The notes under the pieces: model-generated | What the model was told of the DNA's origin: nothing | Seen by the model: the letters and a program-made list of their open reading frames with translations, nothing else | Databases searched by the model: none | In this document: one piece after another, positions 2,222-36,277 of the stretch | Numbering within the stretch: position 1 is the first letter of the stretch | Layout of the letters: each line of letters starts with the position of its first letter | DNA from: Bifidobacterium pluvialisilvae | Lineage (GTDB): Bacteria; Actinomycetota; Actinomycetes; Actinomycetales; Bifidobacteriaceae | Direction: 5' to 3' | DNA: 64,000 bases | NCBI RefSeq assembly: GCF_019331695.1 | Contig: NZ_JAHBBI010000006.1 | Coordinates: 62,001 to 126,000, forward strand | Program-made: the position numbers and the translations under genes

Positions 2222-3688
2222 ATGGGATTGTTCGGCAACGGCAAGGGCAATGACGGCGACCACGACGCCAACGGCGGTTCGGACGGCTACGTCTCCCCGT
2301 TCGACGACCAGTCGGATTACGTCAATATCAACAACTCCTCATATACGAGCACGCATGACGACGGCAACGCCACCATCAACGCCAACAGCCATGGTTACGG
2401 CAACGTCAATATCAACGCCGGGAAACGCGGCAACGCCACCAAACGGCCCCCGTCGAGTGCCGATGCGGCACTGCGCGGCAACGCCCGGTACCGCTCCAAC
2501 GCAGGCGGCACCGGCACCGGCATCAACGCCAACGCCGAAGGCCACGGCGGCAACATCAGCACCCCCATGCAACGCGCCTCGGCCCCGACCGCAGCGAAGC
2601 GCAAGCACCCCATCCGCATCATCCGCAATCTCATCATCGTCATCGTCGTACTGTATCTGTTCACCGACGTGTTCTCCGGCATCGGACGGCTGCTCGGCAT
2701 CGGCGGCGGCAGCAGCCGTTCCGGCACCTCGTCATCCACATCGTCGTATATGCCGCCGAAGACGACGAAACCCATCACGTACAAAATCCTCGACCGCACC
2801 GGCAACCTCACGTATCTCGAACAGTCCGACAAGACGCTCAGCGCCGATTTCACCATCGTCTCCGCCCAGCGCGGCCCGAAGAGCTGCAACGGGCAGAACA
2901 CCGTGCTCGTGAAATACGAGGCGAAGAACACGTCGAAAACCGACATCGACATGCAGTCGTACCTGTCGTTCGACGTCTACGATTCCGGCATCGGACTGCG
3001 GCATATCGGCTGCTTCGCGGGAGGCGACCCGGACGGCTACGACTTCTCCGACACGATGCGGAAGATCGCCCCCGGCTCCTCGCTGGGGTTCATGCAGGCG
3101 TACGAGCTGCGCAATAACACCGACACGTTGTTCGACGTACGCATCGCCAACCACGCGCGCAACACGCCGACGTCGATCGGCGCCTCGTTCACGCTGCCCA
3201 AGGATTCCAAGGCCACCGACGTGACCAAGCCCGGCAGTGTCGTCAAACCCGACATGCCGCAGGGCTTTACGTTGGGTATGACGCGGCTGACCGGCGCATC
3301 GTACCGGTCCGATGACATTCTCGGCGCCGGACGGCAGGTGGATATCAAGGCGGTGCGGGCCGTCAAGGGGCCAAAGACCTACAAGGGCGTCGACACGGTG
3401 ATCGTGACGTACCAGTGGGTCAACCGCACGCCGATACCGTTGGAATTCACCGACGCCGTGACATCGACGGCCTATCAGGACGGCGTGGAACTCAAGCCGA
3501 CCGTGTTCTCGGACCCGTTCGCCGGCTATTCGGTGGCGACGCGCGACGCGCCGGTGATGGAGGACGTGCCGATGACCACGACGATGGCGTACGAGCTGCG
3601 CAACGGCTCGCAGCCGGTGACGACGTCCGTCAAAGGGTACGCCGGTCTCGACGGCAAGACGCTGAAGAAGGAGTTTTCGCTGGAGTAG
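2222..3688 (+). CDS. Membrane-anchored protein with two DUF5067-like domains
   Basis: 488 residues. Residues 1-120 are Asn/Gly/Asp-rich and low in complexity. One hydrophobic segment around 140-160 (RIIRNLIIVIVVLYLFTDVF) is the only membrane span, so the rest is probably exported as a type II membrane protein. Two related beta-sandwich modules follow, each starting with a (V/I)xAxRGPKxxxGxxTVxVxY pattern (near 215 and 380), resembling DUF5067/DUF4352 domains found on Gram-positive surface proteins. AGGGGG lies before the ATG and a -10-like TACACT lies at 2188-2193. Function unknown; a signal- or metabolite-sensing surface role is only a guess. Confidence 0.8.
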   Translation: MGLFGNGKGNDGDHDANGGSDGYVSPFDDQSDYVNINNSSYTSTHDDGNATINANSHGYGNVNINAGKRGNATKRPPSSADAALRGNARYRSNAGGTGTGINANAEGHGGNISTPMQRASAPTAAKRKHPIRIIRNLIIVIVVLYLFTDVFSGIGRLLGIGGGSSRSGTSSSTSSYMPPKTTKPITYKILDRTGNLTYLEQSDKTLSADFTIVSAQRGPKSCNGQNTVLVKYEAKNTSKTDIDMQSYLSFDVYDSGIGLRHIGCFAGGDPDGYDFSDTMRKIAPGSSLGFMQAYELRNNTDTLFDVRIANHARNTPTSIGASFTLPKDSKATDVTKPGSVVKPDMPQGFTLGMTRLTGASYRSDDILGAGRQVDIKAVRAVKGPKTYKGVDTVIVTYQWVNRTPIPLEFTDAVTSTAYQDGVELKPTVFSDPFAGYSVATRDAPVMEDVPMTTTMAYELRNGSQPVTTSVKGYAGLDGKTLKKEFSLE

Positions 3689-3744
3689 GGCGGAATGGGG
3701 CGGTAGGGCGGAATGGGGCGGAGCGTCCAAGAGGAGATCGACTA

Positions 3745-19406: not shown

Positions 19407-20162
19407 ATGGCTACCACTTCGAGAATGACGGCATGGCAGCGGCGCGAGCAACTCATCGCCGTAGGGCGGTCGCTCTTCGCGGCGAAGGGCTTCGAGGCGG
19501 TGAGTGTGGAGGAAATCGCCGCCACGGCGAAGGTGAGCAAACCCATCGTGTACGAGCATTTCGGCGGCAAGGAGGGCCTGTACGCCGTCGTCGTCGACCG
19601 TGAGATGCAGACGCTCACCGAATCGGTGATGGAGACGCTCTCCCGTCCTGCGCAGGGCTCACGCCAGATCGTGGAGAACGCGGCCATGGCGTTCCTCACG
19701 TATATAGAGGAGCACACCGACGGATTCCAGGTGCTGGTGCGCGACCGCCCGACCACCGACCCGTCCGGCTCGTTCAATTCCCTGCTTGGCGACGTGAGCA
19801 TCCGCGTGGAGGACCTGCTCGTCACCGCGTTCAAACGTCATAAGATCCCAGCGAAGGGCGTGCCGTACTATGCGCAGATGCTCGTCGGCATGATGGTGTT
19901 CACCGGCCAGTATTGGGCCACGCATCGCAAACTCGGCAAGGACCAGCTCGCCGCATACATCGTGAACCTCGCGTGGAACGGCCTCTCCAGCATCGAGGCC
20001 AAGCCGACCCTGCGTTACGTCGGCAGCAACATCGACAGGAAGGCCGCCAACGCGACGGATTCCGCCTCCGCCAGTGTCGATTCCAACGTCACGTCCACCG
20101 CATCCGATGGACGACGTGCTGACGACGACGAAATCACGCCCACATCCATCTCAACGGATTGA
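19407..20162 (+). CDS. TetR-family transcriptional regulator
   Basis: 251 residues. The N-terminal helix-turn-helix is clear: REQLIAVGRSLFAAKGFEAVSVEEIAATAKVSKPIVYEHFGGKEGLYAVVVDRE (within residues 10-60). An all-helical ligand domain follows to about 205, then a Ser/Ala/Asp/Thr-rich tail of some 45 residues not usual for the family. It is probably a repressor; targets are unknown, the nearest candidates being the hydrolase genes downstream. TACAAT ends 8 nt before the ATG, so the start rests on a leaderless promoter. Confidence 0.88.
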   Translation: MATTSRMTAWQRREQLIAVGRSLFAAKGFEAVSVEEIAATAKVSKPIVYEHFGGKEGLYAVVVDREMQTLTESVMETLSRPAQGSRQIVENAAMAFLTYIEEHTDGFQVLVRDRPTTDPSGSFNSLLGDVSIRVEDLLVTAFKRHKIPAKGVPYYAQMLVGMMVFTGQYWATHRKLGKDQLAAYIVNLAWNGLSSIEAKPTLRYVGSNIDRKAANATDSASASVDSNVTSTASDGRRADDDEITPTSISTD

Positions 20163-20166
20163 CGGC

Positions 20167-20386
20167 GATGGATTGCGTCGCAATTCTTGGCATATTGCAG
20201 CGTAATCCATCAGAATCCGCCCTTTCTCCATGGATTACGATGCATTTTGTCGAAAAAACGTCGTCGTCCATCACGATTTCCGTTCTCTAATTCCAGAATC
20301 GTTGAAATTGCAACGTTGTAAAAAATCCGATACGTCGATTTTGATGGACCGCAACGCATTTCGTCGAAAATGCAACGGATTCCATC
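20167..20386. repeat. Cluster of three 44-bp palindromes with one 16-bp core
   Basis: Palindromes at 20167-20211 (45 bp), 20229-20272 and 20343-20386 have the pattern GATGGAnnnCG...TGCATTT... and end in TCCATC. The 16-bp CGTTGAAATTGCAACG lies at 20300-20315. The first unit starts 4 bp after the tetR stop; the last ends about 70 bp before the hydrolase start. The unit at 20343 is preceded by TTTT, as in copies at 27741 and 35859. Confidence 0.85.
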
Positions 20387-27641: not shown

Positions 27642-27740
27642 GTCATCCGCCTCCGCCACGTATTCCTCCGCACAGTATAGGCAATCCTCCGGTCGTCGCG
27701 GACCGAATGCGCTGCCGGCCATCGGAATCGCACGGATTTT

Positions 27741-27959
27741 GATGGACTATGACGCATTTCGCGCGAAATACAACGCAGTCCATCACGAATCATGGATCAC
27801 CGAATCAGAAACGTTGCAATTTCAACGATTCTCGATTGCAATCATCCGATTGCCGATGGACTGCGTTGCATATTCGAGAAAATGCAGCGTAATCCATCGA
27901 AATGTCCACGATTCTGATGGACCGCGTTGCATTTTCGCTCAAACGCAACGTCGTCCATC
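27741..27959. repeat. Cluster of three 44-bp palindromes with one 16-bp core; left copy of 124-bp direct repeat
   Basis: Palindromes lie at 27741-27784, 27855-27898 and 27916-27959, each beginning GATGGAC and ending TCCATC. CGTTGCAATTTCAACG is at 27812-27827. The stretch 27741-27864 matches 35859-35982 at about 116 of 124 positions with no gap. The third palindrome overlaps the 3' end of nagA. Confidence 0.88.
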
Positions 27960-29273
27960 GCACCAGACGGACTGCACCTGCCACGTGGCGGGATCAAGCA
28001 GCAGCACATCGGCCGCGAAGCCGGGGGCGAGCAGGCCGACGGGTGCGCCGGTGACATCGTTGGGACGGTCGAATCCGAACGCCTTGGCGGGAGTCAATGT
28101 GGCGGCCTCCACCGCGTCGACCGGAGAGATGCCCAGTTCAAGTACGGCGCGGCTGACCGCACGCTCCAAAACCAGCGTGGATCCGGCGATGGCGTTGTTC
28201 GATACGAGTCGCGCGTGACCGCCGACCACATTGACGTCGAGCGCACCGAGCCGATAATGTCCGTCCGGGCAGTCGGTGGCGGCCATGGCGTCGGTGACGA
28301 ACGCCGTGCGATGCGGCGCGAACCCGAAGGCCAGCGAGACCATGGGATTCTGCACGTGGAATCCGTCGTTGATGAGTTCGATGGTGACGCGCGGGTCTTC
28401 GACGGCGGCGGGAATCGGACCGGGCTCACGATGATGCAGGCCATTCATGGCGTTGAACATATGGGTCATGATGCTCGCGCCGGCGTTGAACGCACGGACG
28501 GCGGTCTCGTAGTCAGCGCTGCAATGACCGACTGCAGGAACGACGCCGGCGGCGGCGAACCGCCGTATGGCGTCGATGCCATGGTCGAGTTCCGGGGCGA
28601 TGGTGATCTGCCGCAGACAACCGTCGGCGGCGGAGAGCAGACGGTCGACCAGTTCGGGAACGGGGTCACGCAGACAATCGGGATCGTGCGCGCCCTTGCG
28701 CGCGAGCGCGAGGAACGGCCCTTCGAGATGCGCACCGAGAATATCCGGCCTGTTCGGCATGAGTCGGCGGACGGTCTCGAGGTTGGCGCACATCGTATCG
28801 ATAGGGTTGGTGATGAGGCTGAGCACCTGTCGCGTGGTGCCATGGGTCATGTGTCCGGCTCGGGCGAGCGCGATGGCGTCAGGGCCGTCGTCGAAGGCCG
28901 TGCCCCATGCACCATGGGCATGGATGTCGATGTAGCCGGGGGTCATGATGCGGCCGGCGGCGTCGATGACCGGCAGACTCGAGAAGGCAGCGGGAATGCC
29001 GTCGGATTCGGGAGTGGGGGCGGCGTCATCAGTGTCGATGGCGACGATGACGCCGTCTCGCACCGCAATCCAGCAATGGTCCTGCACGCCGCGCGCGTCG
29101 ATCTTACGCGCGTCGCGAATCACGAACGATTCCGGAGGTCGACTCAACGCCTCGCCGATGGCGTTTGCACGACGGCGACGCGACAGCCCCGCCTCACATT
29201 CCGGCTGTGTCTGTTCCGCCTGCATCCGTTCCGATTGTGTTTGCTCCGATTGTGTTTCACAATCCATTCCCAT
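27939..29273 (-). CDS. nagA: N-acetylglucosamine-6-phosphate deacetylase
   Basis: 444 residues from 29273 (GAGG upstream); an earlier start at 29315 lacks a ribosome site. Amidohydrolase motifs are PGYIDIHAHGAWG (metal His pair), HLEGPFL (metal Glu), VGHCSADY and THMFNAMNGLHHREPG, and the catalytic Asp in FVTDAMAATDCPDG. It removes acetate from GlcNAc-6-P to give GlcN-6-P for NagB. The last residues (CDGRRCV) and the stop codon lie inside a 44-bp intergenic palindrome, so the native C-terminus has been replaced or extended by a repeat. Confidence 0.93.
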   Translation of the reverse strand: MGMDCETQSEQTQSERMQAEQTQPECEAGLSRRRRANAIGEALSRPPESFVIRDARKIDARGVQDHCWIAVRDGVIVAIDTDDAAPTPESDGIPAAFSSLPVIDAAGRIMTPGYIDIHAHGAWGTAFDDGPDAIALARAGHMTHGTTRQVLSLITNPIDTMCANLETVRRLMPNRPDILGAHLEGPFLALARKGAHDPDCLRDPVPELVDRLLSAADGCLRQITIAPELDHGIDAIRRFAAAGVVPAVGHCSADYETAVRAFNAGASIMTHMFNAMNGLHHREPGPIPAAVEDPRVTIELINDGFHVQNPMVSLAFGFAPHRTAFVTDAMAATDCPDGHYRLGALDVNVVGGHARLVSNNAIAGSTLVLERAVSRAVLELGISPVDAVEAATLTPAKAFGFDRPNDVTGAPVGLLAPGFAADVLLLDPATWQVQSVWCDGRRCV

Positions 29274-29330
29274 ACGACCTCGCGCTCCTTGCATTCGGTA
29301 TATCGACGTCATCAAATCGGAGGATTCGAC

Positions 29331-30119
29331 TCAGATGCCCTGCCAGGCCGGCTTGTGCGCGTAGGCCCAGCGGTAATAATCCTTGTTGCGCAGGCGCGAG
29401 GCGGCGGCCTCGTCCACGATGACCGTGGCATGCGGGTGCAGCTGCAGGGCCGACGCGGGGCAGAGCGCGGAGACGCCGCCTTCGACGGTCTCGGCCACGG
29501 CTTCGGCCTTGCCGTCGCCGAACGCCATAAGCACCAGATGACGTGCCTTCATGATGGTGCCGATGCCCTGCGTGATGCAATGCGTGGGCACCTGATCGAT
29601 GTCCCCGTCGAAGAACCGGGCGTTATCGATGCGGGTCTGCTCGGTGAGCGTCTTGATGCGGGTGCCCGAGGCGAGCGAGGAACCCGGCTCGTTGAAGCCG
29701 ATATGGCCGTCGGTGCCGATGCCGAGAATCTGCAGGTCGACGCCGCCTGCAGCGGCGATGGCCTCATCGTATTCATGGCCCGCTTCCCGAATGGTGTCGA
29801 GGTTGCCGTTCGGCACATGGACCTGATCGGGATTGAGGCCGAGCGGCTCCACCACGGTACGGGTGATGACGCTGCGATACGATTCGGGATGGTTCGGGTC
29901 AAGACCGGCGTATTCATCGAGCGCGAAGCCCCGCACTCCCGACACGTCGATGCCCTCGTCCTTGATGAGCTGCGCCAGATGCCGGTATCCGGCCAACGGG
30001 CTGGAACCCGTGGCCAGTCCGAGCACGCAGTCCGGCTTGGCCTTGATGAGATCGGCCACGCATCGCGCATAGATCTCGCCGGCCTCGTCCTCGTTCTTCA
30101 CGATGATGACTTCCGCCAT
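29331..30119 (-). CDS. nagB: Glucosamine-6-phosphate deaminase
   Basis: 262 residues, close to the usual length. Motifs are LGLATGSSPLAGYRHL, FALDEYAGLDPNHPESYR and LGIGTDGHIGFNEPGSS with the catalytic Asp/His/Glu set. It converts GlcN-6-P to fructose-6-P and ammonia; in bifidobacteria this feeds the F6P phosphoketolase pathway. GAAGGA lies before the ATG. nagA follows after a short gap, so the pair is one transcript, probably together with the esterase and transporter upstream. Confidence 0.95.
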   Translation of the reverse strand: MAEVIIVKNEDEAGEIYARCVADLIKAKPDCVLGLATGSSPLAGYRHLAQLIKDEGIDVSGVRGFALDEYAGLDPNHPESYRSVITRTVVEPLGLNPDQVHVPNGNLDTIREAGHEYDEAIAAAGGVDLQILGIGTDGHIGFNEPGSSLASGTRIKTLTEQTRIDNARFFDGDIDQVPTHCITQGIGTIMKARHLVLMAFGDGKAEAVAETVEGGVSALCPASALQLHPHATVIVDEAAASRLRNKDYYRWAYAHKPAWQGI

Positions 30120-30203
30120 GATTCCTTCTTTCTGTTGGAGTGGTGTTGAGAACGCCGCCGCAGTCGCAGCCATCGGCTTTCACGACTGCGGCGGCAGCGT
30201 CAT

Positions 30204-31346
30204 CTACACACTCGCCGTGAGCGACGTGCGCGGTGACAGATGCTCGTGGAAGAACGCCATCATTGCGTCATTGAGTTCTCCACTGCCGGAGTCCCACGTC
30301 ATCAGGGGATAATCATGAGGGATACGCTTGCCGTTGACGGCCCGCAAATCATGCAGTTCATGATCGCAATTCATCGAACGCAGCAGCATCGTTGCATACA
30401 ACGAGTCGTTTTCCAGAAAATCATCGGTACTGGTGGAAAGCCATACCGGCGGATATGCAATCTTCCGCATCAACGCTTCCGTACGCTCATATGGGGTTCC
30501 TTTCAACCGCGATATCAGCGTCCGGAACACCGGTCGCAGCTTTTCGAACAATTCACCGGAATCCGGATAGGACGAATCGAACAGATGGTCATACACCAGC
30601 ATGCCGGATGTGAAGCCAACCGACTGGAACCGGACATGATGCCCGTCAATTCCCAGAAGAGCAGCAAGCTCTTCATTGGTCTCGCACGCCAGCAGGAACG
30701 TTCCCAGTAACGCACCGGCGGAATCACTGACCAAGAACACCTGTTCCGCCGACAGCTGCCAGCCACCGCCGTTATCCAACAACCACTGCAAGGCCGATGA
30801 CACGTCAGCCAACATGTCAAGGAAATCACCGCCAGGAGCCAGCGTGTAATTGGGGCACACTACGGCGAAGCCTCGGCTGGCGAGCTGAGCCGCGTATACA
30901 TTCTGAATTTCCTTGAACGAATAGAAGAATGCACCACCGTGAATATTGAAAATGACTGGAATGTCACCATCGCCGCGCAAATAAGCGTCTTTCGGAAGGA
31001 AAATGTCCAGCTTATGAGCGCGTTCTCCATCGACCATATAGTCGATATCCGTGAATTTCATCACGGTATCAGGTAACGCGCTGCGGAAATCCAGCCGACG
31101 TACATCACTGAACGCGTAGCTTGCTCGATGCTGCCGCACATACTCAACGAAAACACGATATTCGTCGTCATCATCCGGGATGTCGGCGGTGTCGGGGAGA
31201 TCTTCGTCGAGATAGGTCCATGTCCGAGCCAGCCGCTCCTGCAGTGAAGTCAGAACACGAGTTCCGTTCGTGGCATGGATGTCTTCCAACGTAAAGGGGA
31301 TCCCATTGACAGAGAACGTCGTTGTCTCATCATCGCGATAATTCAT
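30204..31346 (-). CDS. Alpha/beta hydrolase of the acetyl-esterase/lipase (BD-FAE/HSL-like) group
   Basis: 380 residues, no signal peptide. The oxyanion motif is IHGGAFF and the nucleophile elbow SDSAGA (Ser in place of the usual first Gly). A likely acid lies in STSTDDFLEN and the base in RIPHDYPLM. An N-terminal extension of about 90 acidic residues precedes the fold. Between an amino-sugar transporter and nagB it could remove O-acetyl groups from imported sugars, but this is inference from position. GC content is lower than in nagB. Confidence 0.75.
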   Translation of the reverse strand: MNYRDDETTTFSVNGIPFTLEDIHATNGTRVLTSLQERLARTWTYLDEDLPDTADIPDDDDEYRVFVEYVRQHRASYAFSDVRRLDFRSALPDTVMKFTDIDYMVDGERAHKLDIFLPKDAYLRGDGDIPVIFNIHGGAFFYSFKEIQNVYAAQLASRGFAVVCPNYTLAPGGDFLDMLADVSSALQWLLDNGGGWQLSAEQVFLVSDSAGALLGTFLLACETNEELAALLGIDGHHVRFQSVGFTSGMLVYDHLFDSSYPDSGELFEKLRPVFRTLISRLKGTPYERTEALMRKIAYPPVWLSTSTDDFLENDSLYATMLLRSMNCDHELHDLRAVNGKRIPHDYPLMTWDSGSGELNDAMMAFFHEHLSPRTSLTASV

Positions 31347-31356
31347 CGTTTCGACC

Positions 31357-32799
31357 TCACTTCAGCTCGGCCTTCATATCCTCAAGCTCTACACCGTTGG
31401 TTTCCGGCAGGAACTTGACGACGAAGAAGAAGCCCAGCAGCGCCATCAACGTGTAGAAACCATATGTCCATCCAAGACCGATGCCGTCGCGCATGGGTGG
31501 ATAGATTGTGGTGATAAGGAAGTTGAACATCCAGTTCGCCGCAGTAGCGACGGCTTCGCCCTTGGCACGAATACGATTCGGGAAAATCTCGCTGATGATG
31601 ACCCAGACGGCGACGTTCGTGGTGGCGCAGCAGACCAGGAAGAACGCGTAGGTGCAGATAATGGAAATCCACGTCCACGTAATCGACAGGCTCAACGTGC
31701 CATCGGCATTAAGCTGTCCCTGGCCGAAGCCGATAGCCGTAATGCCAAGGAACACCGTCATCAGCAATGTGCCGTATTTCATAAGGTTGCGACGACCGAC
31801 CCGATCGATAAGCACCATGCCTACCACTGTGGCAACGGCGGCGAGGGTCGCACGCACAACAGCGATGGTCAGTGAGGCCTGCTCACTGAATCCCAGCATA
31901 TTCCACAAGCTGGAGTCGTACAGCATGATGATGTTCTGGCCATTGGCCTGAGCCAGCAGGACGAAGATGATGGAAATCCAGACCACGCCTTTGAGACCGA
32001 ACGTCTTGCCACGCAGTTCCTTGAAGGAAACCTTCTTTTCGTTCTCTTCGCTCTGGAACGACTTCTGAATCTTGGAAATGGTCACATCGGCGTTCTCGTC
32101 TCCGATGACATCGACCAAAATCTCCCTAGCCTTGGCAATTTCACCCTTCATGACCAGATAACGGGGAGTCTCCGGCAAAGCGAAGCACAGGAAGAACATG
32201 ATGACGCCAGGCAGAGCCGTGGTCACCAGCATCCAACGCCATGCATCTATTCCCATCCAGAATGGCATTTCAGCGCCGCCGGATGCCACGACATAGATAT
32301 CATTGACGACCAGCGACGCAATAATGCCCAGAGCAATGGCCATCTGCTGGAAGCTGGTGAAGAAACCGCGCCTTGCCGCAGGGGAAATCTCCGATATATA
32401 GGCGGGACCGATTGCCGAAGTGAAACCAACGCCAAGACCTCCGACAATGCGGAAGATGATGAACATGGTAAAGTTCGTCGTCAAGCCTGTCACCAAAGAA
32501 GCTGCCACAAACAATATGGCGGCAAGTTCCAATACGCGAATTCGTCCCATGCGATCGGCGACCACGCCGGCGAACCAGGCACCGAACACACATCCCAGCA
32601 ATGCGCTGGAAACCGAGAATCCGCTCATGGTACTGCTGAGTGCAAAACCGGAATCCGGACTGGCGATTGCGGTCACGGCACCGTTGATGACTGAAGTATC
32701 GTATCCGAACAGGAAGCCTCCCACGGCTCCGATCGTGCAGACAGCAATTAGCTTGCCTTTAAGCTTTCCATCGATTTGAGGCTGAGCCTGTTGACTCAT
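31357..32799 (-). CDS. Sugar-porter family MFS transporter
   Basis: 480 residues, 12 spans. Sugar-porter signatures: GGFLFGYDTSVINGA in helix 1, DRMGR and DRVGRR in the 2-3 and 8-9 loops, PETPRYLV after helix 6 and LPETNGVE at the end. These are proton-coupled or facilitative importers of monosaccharides. The context (ROK kinase, nanE, nagA, nagB) points to N-acetylmannosamine or another N-acetyl-hexosamine. AGGAG 7 nt before the ATG supports the start; a longer frame is not credible. It lies 10 bp upstream of the esterase and is divergent from the ROK gene. Confidence 0.88.
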   Translation of the reverse strand: MSQQAQPQIDGKLKGKLIAVCTIGAVGGFLFGYDTSVINGAVTAIASPDSGFALSSTMSGFSVSSALLGCVFGAWFAGVVADRMGRIRVLELAAILFVAASLVTGLTTNFTMFIIFRIVGGLGVGFTSAIGPAYISEISPAARRGFFTSFQQMAIALGIIASLVVNDIYVVASGGAEMPFWMGIDAWRWMLVTTALPGVIMFFLCFALPETPRYLVMKGEIAKAREILVDVIGDENADVTISKIQKSFQSEENEKKVSFKELRGKTFGLKGVVWISIIFVLLAQANGQNIIMLYDSSLWNMLGFSEQASLTIAVVRATLAAVATVVGMVLIDRVGRRNLMKYGTLLMTVFLGITAIGFGQGQLNADGTLSLSITWTWISIICTYAFFLVCCATTNVAVWVIISEIFPNRIRAKGEAVATAANWMFNFLITTIYPPMRDGIGLGWTYGFYTLMALLGFFFVVKFLPETNGVELEDMKAELK

Positions 32800-32899
32800 G
32801 GTATTCTCCTTTGCCTGATGATGAACCTCGTCGTTCATCAGTAAGCCCCAATCGTATTGAGCGGGCATTCTCCGGTCATCGGCGACAGGGCTATGGGCG

Positions 32900-32935
32900 T
32901 GACGCAAATGAATGATTTTGTGACTTATGACGCAA
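32900..32935. promoter_or_regulatory. Direct repeat in the divergent MFS/ROK promoter region
   Basis: TGACGCAA occurs at 32900-32907 and again at 32928-32935, 28 bp apart start to start. Directly repeated half-sites suit an AraC-family protein such as the one encoded at 34788. Tentative. Confidence 0.35.
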
Positions 32936-33039
32936 GGCTCTGTTGTCGCGCCTGAGGGAAGCCTGATAACAATAAGAGTGGAGGCGAACTGACATAGCGC
33001 AGCCGCCGATATCGCATAATCGCGCCAATGGAGGTGCTC

Positions 33040-34056
33040 ATGAGTTTTGCAGGCATAAGCCATCAGCATACGGTAATGTCCGTGGACATCGGTGGAACCA
33101 AAATCGCCGCCGGTCTTATGCAAACCAATCTTGATGAACAAGCAAAGATACAGAATGCACCGACACTTATTCGACGGTGTGTTCTGCCGACGGAAGCGCA
33201 TCTTGGCGGCGCCTTCGTATTGCAACGAGTTGCACAAGCCATCCGGCAATGTCTAGACGCCGGCGAAATTCCCTTTCCGCTACTGGGAATCGGCGTAGCA
33301 AGTGCAGGAGTCATTGATGGCAACGGATCGGTACTGTCGGCTACATCGCTAATCCCCGGATGGGCCGGCATCCGGCTGCAAGCCGAATTATCCACAGCGT
33401 TTGATTTGCCCGTAGCTGTTATCGGAGACGTACAAGCGCATGCTCTAGGCGAGGCACGCTGGGGATGCGGGCGGCAATACCAATCGATGCTGGTCGCCGC
33501 CATCGGTACAGGCATCGGAGGAGCGATAATCGTCGACGGGAAATTGATACGAGGCGTTCATGGCGCCTGTGGCCATATTGGTCATCTTCCACATCCCGAT
33601 GCCAGCGGGATACCCTGCTCGTGCGGACATGAAGGTCATGTGGAATCAATCGCTTCCGGCACAGGTATCGCCGATAATTATCGACGCATCATGCAACAGC
33701 GTGGACAAGGCACGTTCCCATCCGATATCAACGGACGTACTGTCGCCGAACTGGCCACCCATGGTAATGCAGAAGCTGCGCGCAGCATCGCTACAGCCGG
33801 CACAAGTCTTGGCGATGTCCTTGGCGGACTCATCAATGTTTTTGACCCCGACGCCGTAATTCTTTCCGGTTCCGTGGTTCAATCCGGGGAACGTTGGATG
33901 AAGTACGTGGAATATGGCATCCAACGGCAAGCTCTGGGTCTTCTTTCCAAAACACCTGTCTTGGCGGGGACACTCGGTGGGCAAGCCCCCCTAATCGGAG
34001 CTGCAGAAGCTTTGTGCGACAAAATCTCGAATATCAAGCAAGGAGCGGAAATATGA
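33040..34056 (+). CDS. ROK-family sugar kinase, probable N-acetylmannosamine kinase
   Basis: 338 residues. The phosphate-binding motif is SVDIGGTKIAAG. The ROK core includes VAAIGTGIGGAIIVDG and a zinc-site region GACGHIGHLPHP...CSCGHEGHVES, in which the last Cys of the canonical C-x-C-G-x2-G-C motif is replaced by His. GGAGG is 5 nt before the ATG. It overlaps nanE by ATGA, so it most likely phosphorylates ManNAc, the nanE substrate precursor. GlcNAc or glucose kinase activity cannot be excluded. Confidence 0.85.
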   Translation: MSFAGISHQHTVMSVDIGGTKIAAGLMQTNLDEQAKIQNAPTLIRRCVLPTEAHLGGAFVLQRVAQAIRQCLDAGEIPFPLLGIGVASAGVIDGNGSVLSATSLIPGWAGIRLQAELSTAFDLPVAVIGDVQAHALGEARWGCGRQYQSMLVAAIGTGIGGAIIVDGKLIRGVHGACGHIGHLPHPDASGIPCSCGHEGHVESIASGTGIADNYRRIMQQRGQGTFPSDINGRTVAELATHGNAEAARSIATAGTSLGDVLGGLINVFDPDAVILSGSVVQSGERWMKYVEYGIQRQALGLLSKTPVLAGTLGGQAPLIGAAEALCDKISNIKQGAEI

Positions 34057-34748
34057 ACATCAGCGACACCTATTCCAAACGTCTCATTGATTCGCTTCAT
34101 GGGAAACTGATAGTCAGCTGTCAAGCGTATCCAGGTGAGCCGATGCGGCATCCCGAAACCATGGCCCAGATTGCCCGATCAGCGGAAATCGGCGGCGCCG
34201 CCGCGATTCGATGCCAAGGGCTGGCCGACATCAGCGCCATTAAGGGTCAAGTGAAGGTACCAGTCATTGGTATCTGGAAAGAGGGCGATGACGGCGTATA
34301 CATAACACCGACACTGCGTCATGCCAGGGCTTGCATCATGGCTGGAGCCGATATCGTGGCGCTTGATGCCACGAATCGCCCACGCCCGGACGGCCTGACA
34401 CTGCAACAAACCGTGCAGCAGCTCAAGAGCGAAGGCGCAATATTGATGGCAGACTGCGGCTGTATTGAAGACGCTGATGCTGCCGTGGACGCTGGGGTCG
34501 ATATCATCTCCACCACACTGGCGGGATATACGGGCTCACGCGTCAAGACAGAAGGACCGGATTATGAACTGCTTGCTCAAATGCTGGAGCGGCACCCCCA
34601 TATACCGGTGATATGCGAGGGGAGAATACATACCCCTGCCGATGCAGCAAAAGTCATAGGCATGGGCGCCTGGGCAGCAGTCGTCGGCACTGCCATCACC
34701 CACCCCATGACGATAACCTCATGGTTCGCCGATGCAGTAAGGTCTTGA
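34053..34748 (+). CDS. nanE: N-acetylmannosamine-6-phosphate 2-epimerase
   Basis: 231 residues, TIM-barrel. Characteristic segments: LIVSCQAYPGEPMRHPE, GAAAIRCQGLADI, GIWKEG (catalytic Lys), ALDATNRPRPDG, ADCGCIEDADAAVDAGVDIISTTLAGYT in pieces, and VICEGRIHTP (catalytic Glu). It converts ManNAc-6-P to GlcNAc-6-P, the nagA substrate. Its start overlaps the kinase stop. No nanA lyase gene is present in the window. Confidence 0.93.
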   Translation: MNISDTYSKRLIDSLHGKLIVSCQAYPGEPMRHPETMAQIARSAEIGGAAAIRCQGLADISAIKGQVKVPVIGIWKEGDDGVYITPTLRHARACIMAGADIVALDATNRPRPDGLTLQQTVQQLKSEGAILMADCGCIEDADAAVDAGVDIISTTLAGYTGSRVKTEGPDYELLAQMLERHPHIPVICEGRIHTPADAAKVIGMGAWAAVVGTAITHPMTITSWFADAVRS

Positions 34749-34787
34749 CGGCACGTACATAAACCAGTGGCCTAGGCAGGGAGCGAT

Positions 34788-35663
34788 ATGCAATACGTTG
34801 AGGGTACTAATCAGGAGCTATTGACAGCATCGCCGCAATTCCCTGCCTTGGTCATCGCGCATCAGGGGTTCGACAAGGCACGACTTCACTGGCATGAAGG
34901 ATTTGAAGTAGTGTACGTTCGGCGGTGTCGGGCCACAGTGGTGAAAGGCACCCGACGCTCAATGCATCATTCCGGCGATGTAGTGCTGGTTCCCCCACGC
35001 TGCCTGCATAGCATCGAACTTATCCAGGATCCCCAGCAGCCATCTGCTATACCACAGGCACTTTCCGTAACAATCTCCCCCACCGAGCTGCTTCCGTCAT
35101 ACCCGTATATTTCTCAAATCCAGCAACAGCTGGATTATGAACACATTGGAGAGGACAACCATAAGCGGCTGATGGAATACTGCGAACAAATATTCGTGGC
35201 GTTGGCCAGCGGCAAACAGACACGATTCCTCGAAGCAAATTCATGGTTTTACTCCATGCTTACCAGCATCTTCAACTATGCCAAGCCATTGAATGCATCA
35301 ACCCAGGAAAACATCGAAGACGAAACCATACTTCAGGATGGGCGAGTCATTAAACGAATACGCCACTACGTGCAGCGTCATTATCGTGAATCATTATCCA
35401 CCGCACAGGTATCTCAAAAATTCGGATATTCAAGAGAGCATTTCTCAAGAATATTCCGCAGATACTCCGGAGTAACGTTCAAAGATTACGTAACGCGAGT
35501 GCGCTTACTGGTAGCCTGCGATCTGCTCACCAATACGGACATGCCAATTAATCAAATAGTGCGTGAATCCGGATTTCCAAGTTCTCAGACCATGCGAGGC
35601 GCGTTCGATCGCGAATTTGCATGTACGCCCAGCGAATACCGTGCCCGTTCAATCGAAAAGTGA
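34788..35663 (+). CDS. AraC-family regulator, probable activator of the amino-sugar locus
   Basis: 291 residues. An N-terminal cupin carries ARLHWHEGFEVVYVRRC and HSGDVVLVPPRCLHSI. The C-terminal double helix-turn-helix is AQVSQKFGYSREHFSRIFRRY followed by INQIVRESGFPSSQTMRGAF. GGGAGCG before the ATG. It follows nanE by 39 bp and is likely cotranscribed. Its codons are clearly richer in A and T than the housekeeping genes, in line with acquisition of the 30.2-35.7 kb segment. Confidence 0.88.
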   Translation: MQYVEGTNQELLTASPQFPALVIAHQGFDKARLHWHEGFEVVYVRRCRATVVKGTRRSMHHSGDVVLVPPRCLHSIELIQDPQQPSAIPQALSVTISPTELLPSYPYISQIQQQLDYEHIGEDNHKRLMEYCEQIFVALASGKQTRFLEANSWFYSMLTSIFNYAKPLNASTQENIEDETILQDGRVIKRIRHYVQRHYRESLSTAQVSQKFGYSREHFSRIFRRYSGVTFKDYVTRVRLLVACDLLTNTDMPINQIVRESGFPSSQTMRGAFDREFACTPSEYRARSIEK

Positions 35664-35797
35664 GAAGAAACGATCAATGCGAATCAAAGGAGTAACGAGC
35701 CATCAGTTCTCGCAAACGTTATAACGCTGATATGGCATGAGCTCTTAATTAATTGAAAACACAGCCAATTCATCGGCCATCAGCGCCCAGACATACC

Positions 35798-36148
35798 GAT
35801 GGATTGCGACGATTTTCGGCCTATATGCAACGTAGTCCATCGAAATCAAGGGAATTTTGATGGACTATGACGCATTTCGCGCGAAATACAACGCAGTCCA
35901 TCACGAATCATGAACCGGAAAATCAGAAACGTTGCAATTTCAATGATTCCCGATTGCAATCATCCGATTGCCGATGGACTGCACCGCAATATCGACGAAT
36001 CGCAGTCCAATCCATCAGAATCACGCAGGTTTCGATGGACTACATTGCATATTCAAGAAATCGCAACACGATCCATCAAAGCCGGCATGCTTCCCACGAA
36101 TTCCGATGGGCCTCAACGGAATCGAACTCAAACGCAGCGTCGTCCACC
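35798..36148. repeat. Cluster of five 44-bp palindromes with one 16-bp core; right copy of 124-bp direct repeat
   Basis: Palindromes lie at 35798-35841, 35859-35902, 35973-36016, 36034-36077 and 36105-36148 (the last is degenerate, ending CCACC). CGTTGCAATTTCAATG is at 35930-35945. The units at 35859 and 35973 with the core between them make the copy of 27741-27864. The cluster fills most of the 35664-36289 gap; 35664-35797 is AT-rich with no feature recognised. Confidence 0.88.
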
Positions 36149-36277
36149 GCGCCTTGATGCGCCTTGACACGCCTTGACACGCCATAACCCACCCTGTTGC
36201 CCTGCTGACTTGCCGCCCAGCCGCCCTGGCCGACCACCGCCGGCCACCGCCGGCACCGCTTCTCACCCCGCCGAAGC

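Follow-up and report, generated by a model that had tools for sequence, protein, structure and literature searches.

A locus for amino-sugar use in Bifidobacterium pluvialisilvae lies between two nearly identical 124-bp direct repeats, within a 64,000-nucleotide stretch of contig NZ_JAHBBI010000006.1 (hereafter the window). We consider it probable that three things, taken as one account, lie behind this arrangement: a dispersed array element, a recently exchanged gene cassette carrying the right-hand array, and a later conversion of the left-hand array. The repeats would belong to an intergenic element scattered through the genome, in which palindromic boxes stand at fixed distances around a shared central core. 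A cassette of five AT-rich genes and the right array would stand at the place that, in related species, holds ROK and RbsD/FucU-type genes between nagB and an epimerase gene, and once both arrays were present some 107 bp of the left one (most of its box B2 and the core spacer) would have been overwritten by right-array-like sequence, creating the 124-bp match. Arrays in the same orientation at both ends of a cassette may further provide a substrate for homologous recombination, as two cassettes present or absent elsewhere suggest, so that cassettes could be gained, lost or converted. The first-pass annotation of this DNA, which had seen an amino-sugar locus bracketed by direct repeats, is partly supported.

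A palindromic array of fixed geometry

As that annotation had described, positions 27741-27864 and 35859-35982 are identical at 116 of 124 places, ungapped and in the same orientation; a repeat search finds a longer match around them, of 241 nt at 79% (27719-27959 and 35837-36077). The match is not chance, given a background of 57% median identity among array units over 158 bases (all 1,081 aligned pairs). Each 124-bp repeat comprises one box, the core spacer and ten bases of the next box, and is part of a palindromic array. The box is a 44-bp palindrome of the form GATGGA...TCCATC, and the full plan reads box-17-box-[27-core-27]-box-17-box around a core of 16 bp, which in the four arrays measured is centred, 27 bp from each flanking box. 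The core is mostly the palindrome CGTTGnAATTnCAACG or its variant CGTTGnAATCATGCGG. A weight matrix made from boxes of the B. pluvialisilvae genome and run on the loci examined returned 62 arrays with 203 boxes: 20 arrays in that genome (one of them a single box), 23 in B. saimiriisciurei, 18 in B. primatium and 1 in B. simiarum. Neighbouring boxes are exactly 61 bp apart in 73 of 141 intervals and exactly 114 bp apart in 47, and the absence of a box or a change of one base accounts for most of the remaining 21. The pattern GATGGAN{30,40}TCCATC occurs at 37 places in the B. pluvialisilvae genome (2.66 Mb in 21 contigs), a few of which look unrelated, and nowhere in the reversed control. Many array places are common to three related species, and box sequence changes fast.

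Watson-Crick pairing within boxes amounts to 0.550, against 0.514 (standard deviation 0.008) when columns are shuffled, a value that none of 200 shuffles reached; pairing between B2 and B3 does not exceed the shuffles (z about -1). Since the two halves of a box show hardly any co-variation of the kind that base pairing would leave, the likeliest reading of the boxes is as sites of DNA-protein contact, predicted to be mainly paired half-sites rather than RNA stems, and the whole is most likely a putative multi-site DNA-binding element. Two further observations concern single arrays. On contig C1 of B. saimiriisciurei one array and its flanks (3.6 kb aligned) are present twice, at 28000 and 300000, in inverted relative orientation, and at about 3600-3720 of locus L027 a CAAATCAGCGACGT-like unit is repeated in a short tandem run next to an array.

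An AT-rich cassette beside resident genes

Pfam matches confirm the genes that had been named between the repeats (nagA, nagB, esterase, MFS, ROK, nanE and AraC), and the AT-richness noticed from the esterase to AraC is equally real. GC is 0.533 in the esterase gene, 0.536 in that of the MFS transporter, 0.547 in ROK, 0.557 in nanE and 0.493 in AraC, a range of 0.49-0.56 against 0.63-0.67 in nagA, nagB and the four outside genes measured, while GC at third codon positions (GC3) is 0.50-0.66 in the five genes and 0.74-0.91 in their neighbours. Both nagA and nagB lie within the repeats, yet their GC is not low; they are resident genes.

That the block arrived from elsewhere, as the annotation had suspected, is borne out by its low GC and GC3, by 6,424 bp that do not differ from another species, by the different genes at this place in B. 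primatium and by the rarity of its AraC protein, which has a match at E <= 1e-50 in 4 of 189 genomes of the family. Over 16 kb the window shares 98.8% identity with the genome of B. saimiriisciurei SMA1, with differences on both sides of 29839-36262 and none inside. Elsewhere the comparison covered loci picked for their arrays or cores, where identity in aligned pieces is 72-97%, and the genome collection enters SMA1 (G014, which has the same array coordinates) as another species of the genus. In B. primatium the left array, nagA and nagB are followed by two ROK genes and by genes of DHDPS, amidohydrolase, RbsD/FucU, SDR and MR/MLE-enolase type (Pfam), with the epimerase gene about 18 kb on and, after the left array, no GATGGA box in between; B. 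catulorum has the same gene order from nagB to SDR. To judge from these comparisons the esterase-MFS-ROK-nanE-AraC block is foreign and recently acquired, and its substrates, going by the protein families, are probably acetylated amino sugars. Pfam finds no transposase or integrase among the nine proteins of the block and its edges.

The left array is, by its distribution among relatives, older than the block. Its place is upstream of a YhgE-type gene, and B. primatium carries the left array upstream of the same gene without the block. A core element with other boxes stands upstream of the YhgE-type gene in three more species: beside nagA in B. callimiconis and in B. vansinderenii, and in B. 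tissieri, where the contig ends and nagA was not seen. In B. vansinderenii the block is absent and one core element is present; since the boxes are of another kind and nagB is missing, this is not the product of a deletion that leaves one hybrid array. The right array appears to belong to the cassette, at its AraC end, just as a core element does in the distant relative G011. There the same five genes follow in the same order (75% nucleotide identity over 30208-35650), adjoin a relative of the window's 5'-nucleotidase gene (46% amino-acid identity), and end with AraC, after which comes a core element that carries a GAAGGACGACG box. Elsewhere in the B. pluvialisilvae genome, an array-associated segment (C4:51443-52742) resembles part of the nag-side segment of B. 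primatium (C5) at 91-92% and a further locus of that species (C2) at 85%.

A probable conversion patch behind the 124-bp match

The near-identity of the two arrays is peculiar to the window genome, for over the same 124 bp the left and right arrays agree at 116 places there and at 103 in B. saimiriisciurei. The difference lies in a patch at 27747-27853, between stretches that match B. saimiriisciurei: compared with B2 of the window, the left B2 agrees at 34 of 44 places in B. saimiriisciurei and at 35 of 44 in B. primatium, while the window's left B3 is identical to the left B3 of B. saimiriisciurei (44/44) and agrees with the right B3 at 31 of 44. Besides its B. saimiriisciurei copy, the nearest relatives of the right array are the left-locus arrays (137, 124 and 123 of 158), and the next scores 99. 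The 124-bp match is best read as a later gene-conversion patch in the window genome and not as a mark of arrival.

Cassettes between arrays elsewhere

The nag locus is one of several at which arrays stand at the edges of gene cassettes. A 3.4-kb cassette of B. primatium encoding a KAP-family P-loop NTPase (L207, 2154-4469; best PADLOC hit PifA) lies between arrays that are alike at 148 of 158 places and has a GC of 0.50 against 0.65, and at this place B. saimiriisciurei has a single array, both flanks and no cassette. The changeover, in this only case examined, falls near the array end and away from the core, and this case lends no support to a simple swap at the core. In the B. pluvialisilvae genome a cassette of MFS, rhamnosidase and LacI genes, of normal GC, lies between arrays that share a 245-bp direct repeat at 86%, and neither sister species has it there. 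A segment of 13-14 kb has an array at each end in B. primatium, where the two arrays agree at 127 of 158 places, and in B. saimiriisciurei, where they agree at 145; B. pluvialisilvae is without its right part and also without the right array. Three cassettes, of which one occurs in two genomes, would be consistent with an array placed at the 3' end of a mobile unit.

These cases suggest that arrays can behave as direct repeats at cassette edges, and since cassettes are present or absent between arrays in sister species, gain or loss between arrays is realistic. Loss, one of the two outcomes that the first-pass annotation had proposed for the 124-bp repeats, gains plausibility from them in general; at the nag locus itself no precise deletion leaving one hybrid array was seen in the relatives compared.

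A core shared with other box families

A relaxed core pattern matches the B. pluvialisilvae genome 34 times on one strand and 37 times on the other (palindromes count on both) and the control not at all; the strict palindrome matches 21 times. The core also lies among boxes of other kinds. An inverted repeat scoring at least 10 surrounds 26 of the 49 own-locus cores viewed, against 8 of 400 control places, and the flanking boxes, sorted by eye, fall into GATGGAC, GTGACCGGGTGC, GTGCTGGACT, GCGAGTTGTGGGTGTT and CAACTTCTGGGG families. In the Bifidobacteriaceae the strict palindrome occurs in 64 of 151 genomes and 5 of 16 genera. Loci in other genomes were picked from among the matches listed. In another genus (20 loci from six genomes) 11 of 23 cores reach a score of 10, and ten of these 11 have boxes that by eye are of GGCTTATTTGTGGCA type; among 12 hand-picked elements of this type the arms agree at 0.764, against 0.714 when shuffled (P 0.0036). 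Across the order 19 of 297 genomes match the core, ten from the same family, five from one further family and four elsewhere with single matches. Three genomes of one genus in this further family hold 12, 23 and 46 core matches, and in 20 stretches from four of its genomes all 26 cores score at least 10. Of these 26, the 23 from that one genus have boxes that end at a distance of 32 or 33 nt to either side of the core, and the box type is equal in both arms in 20 of the 23, against a shuffle mean of 11.3, an agreement that subfamilies of common descent would also produce. A genome-wide substitute family of GAAGGA boxes in G011 was considered and dropped (6 pattern matches, some unrelated, with 8 in the B. 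pluvialisilvae genome and 1 in the control).

Some cores stand without such boxes or in other settings. Four in the B. pluvialisilvae genome lie 6 to 50 bp past the 3' ends of genes for tRNA-Gly, Arg, Ala and Leu (L030:2853, L167:3203, L177:1186, L180:353), the last in what looks by eye like a terminator hairpin. Two bare cores 87 bp apart (C18:182595 and 182682) separate genes of nitrite/sulfite-reductase and pyridine-nucleotide-disulphide-oxidoreductase type (Pfam), and the pair recurs in genome G010 (C3:83057 and 83144). The core may also be an ordinary operator. A literature search at title level found no description of such an element.

A bolder reading, tentative and in our view rather doubtful, is that elements with the core CGTTGnAATTnCAACG and swappable, lineage-specific boxes, found in at least two families of the order, form a system of cassette borders, in which a factor that binds the core and partners that bind the boxes would mark gene ends and make cassettes for sugar use and phage defence exchangeable among related species.

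Weighing the account

Several observations weigh against the account given at the outset or parts of it. On its left side the cassette does not end at an array. A core upstream of the YhgE-type gene was found in none of 15 further Bifidobacterium loci, nor in the B. catulorum and B. simiarum stretches. Between the patch and the right array 8 of 124 places still differ, whereas the block itself shows no difference from that of B. saimiriisciurei; the donor of the patch may accordingly be a right array of earlier date or some third source. For the SMA1 genome a contamination of 9% is on record, and this weakens the finding of no differences. For the predicted protein sites, the excess of pairing per box (z 3.4-4.8) is small and exceeds every shuffle.

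The 124-bp copies might simply be direct repeats at the flanks through which the block entered whole, or could be deleted or amplified, as the first-pass annotation had proposed. Their shared orientation and 116 of 124 identities suit this, as does the KAP locus, with bracketed-cassette and single-array states in sister species. We think it unlikely all the same: the left array predates the block, B. saimiriisciurei has an identical block between arrays that agree at only 103 of 124, the foreign DNA begins past nagB at about 30.15-30.2 kb instead of at the left array, and the nag locus offers no hybrid single-array state. It is likewise improbable that the arrays are transcribed as hairpins, serving as terminators or as an RNA. 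The palindromes stand mostly on the 3' sides of genes, the cores near tRNA 3' ends lie within 50 bp of them, and other box families contain long inverted repeats; against this, compensatory pairing between B2 and B3 is absent and the excess within boxes weak, and no family reaches the Rfam gathering score in 20000-42000. Seven weak microRNA matches (in 3 of 7 loci of relatives) fall far under gathering scores and were taken as chance.

An integron-like system, in which a cassette consists of genes plus a 3'-end array and the core is the crossover point of a recombinase, seems more doubtful still. It would account for arrays at one or both cassette ends (in the window, in G011 and at the KAP and rhamnosidase loci), for the direct orientation of neighbouring arrays and for a core of two inverted half-sites, but not for a KAP changeover away from the core. 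The exact core consensus occurs in only 13 viral-contig stretches, near chance for a 16-mer by our own estimate from an assumed collection size, and the right array matches nothing in phage or plasmid records, so that a phage or plasmid source was also rejected. Least probable, and largely refuted, is a spread of repetitive extragenic palindromes (REP) or bacterial interspersed mosaic elements (BIME) by a Y1 transposase of the RAYT type. Short intergenic palindromes would fit, as would the gene settings: a heuristic caller of open reading frames could class 58 of the 62 arrays, with 36 between tandem genes, 18 between convergent and 4 between divergent ones, orthologous arrays being counted repeatedly. 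The box-rich genomes (that of the window, G013, G014 and G015) nonetheless lack any match to PF01797 and thus a Y1 transposase; one of nine genomes of the genus, G012, has such a match, and there a single, unrelated-looking instance of the box pattern. A tRNA-linked island was rejected as well, there being no tRNA in the window.

The arrays can also be set beside known classes. REP and BIME are short palindromic intergenic units, several per locus and rarely between divergent genes, and the arrays differ from them by 44-bp boxes, the fixed 61/114-bp geometry and a shared core. With the attC arrays of chromosomal integrons they have in common direct orientation and cassettes present or absent, and would share a palindromic site at the cassette 3' end, but they are about 280 bp long, lie at scattered places, border multi-gene cassettes on both strands and have no integrase tied to them, with no tyrosine-recombinase search made. 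Miniature inverted-repeat transposable elements are likewise dispersed non-coding inverted repeats, from which the arrays differ in the many places common to three species and in their fast-changing boxes. Catabolic islands exchanged by homologous recombination also bring low-GC sugar genes in place of a segment between conserved neighbours; here one or both borders carry a shared repeat element.

Features of the window

Besides the two nag arrays, the window holds a third array (Table 1), which is found at the same place in genome G011, where both adjoining genes match (76% and 82%). Three more core sites lie at 1259, 6713 and 54779, the first two with GTGACCGGGTGC-type boxes.

Table 1. Arrays, genes and compared stretches in the window, numbered from its first base
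Feature	Position	Strand	Remarks
Left array, box B2	27741-27784		44-bp palindrome; 44/44 with right B2, 34/44 with B. saimiriisciurei left B2
Left array, core CGTTGCAATTTCAACG	27812-27827		exact centre (27+16+27) of the 70-bp B2-B3 spacer
Left array, box B3	27855-27898		44/44 with B. saimiriisciurei left B3
Left array, box B4	27916-27959		overlaps the final nagA codons
Putative gene-conversion tract	27747-27853		unlike B. saimiriisciurei amid matching sequence; resembles right array
nagA-type amidohydrolase, resident	27939-29315	-	Pfam Amidohydro_1; adjoins nagB also in B. primatium and B. catulorum
nagB-type glucosamine-6-phosphate isomerase, resident	29331-30173	-	Pfam Glucosamine_iso
BD-FAE/abhydrolase esterase	30204-31346	-	first gene of the block judged imported; Pfam, GC
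Sugar_tr MFS transporter	31357-33249 (listed frame)	-	Pfam; true start probably near 32.8 kb
ROK-family protein	33028-34056	+	Pfam; probably a sugar kinase, presumably NanK-like
NanE ManNAc-6-P epimerase	33894-34748 (listed frame)	+	Pfam; listed frame overlaps ROK, true start further in
AraC-family regulator	34788-35663	+	Pfam; last gene of the block
Stretch without difference to B. saimiriisciurei SMA1	29839-36262		6,424 bp
Right array, box B1	35798-35841
Right array, box B2	35859-35902
Right array, core CGTTGCAATTTCAATG	35930-35945		one base off a strict palindrome
Right array, box B3	35973-36016
Right array, box B4	36034-36077
Right array, fifth box	36105-36148		degenerate; second half like left B4 (by eye)
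Third array	20106-20386		boxes at 20106, 20167, 20229 and 20343; core 20300-20315

Implications

If the account given here is true, an extended and almost perfect direct repeat that encloses an island may reflect later conversion and not the island's entry, a caution for reading such islands. Bifidobacteria and some of their relatives would then share an apparently undescribed and geometrically rigid DNA element that can border exchanged genes for sugar use and defence. A shared core with swappable boxes would be a clear bait for its putative binding protein, and the element as a whole would offer a concrete handle on how gut bifidobacteria swap catabolic blocks.

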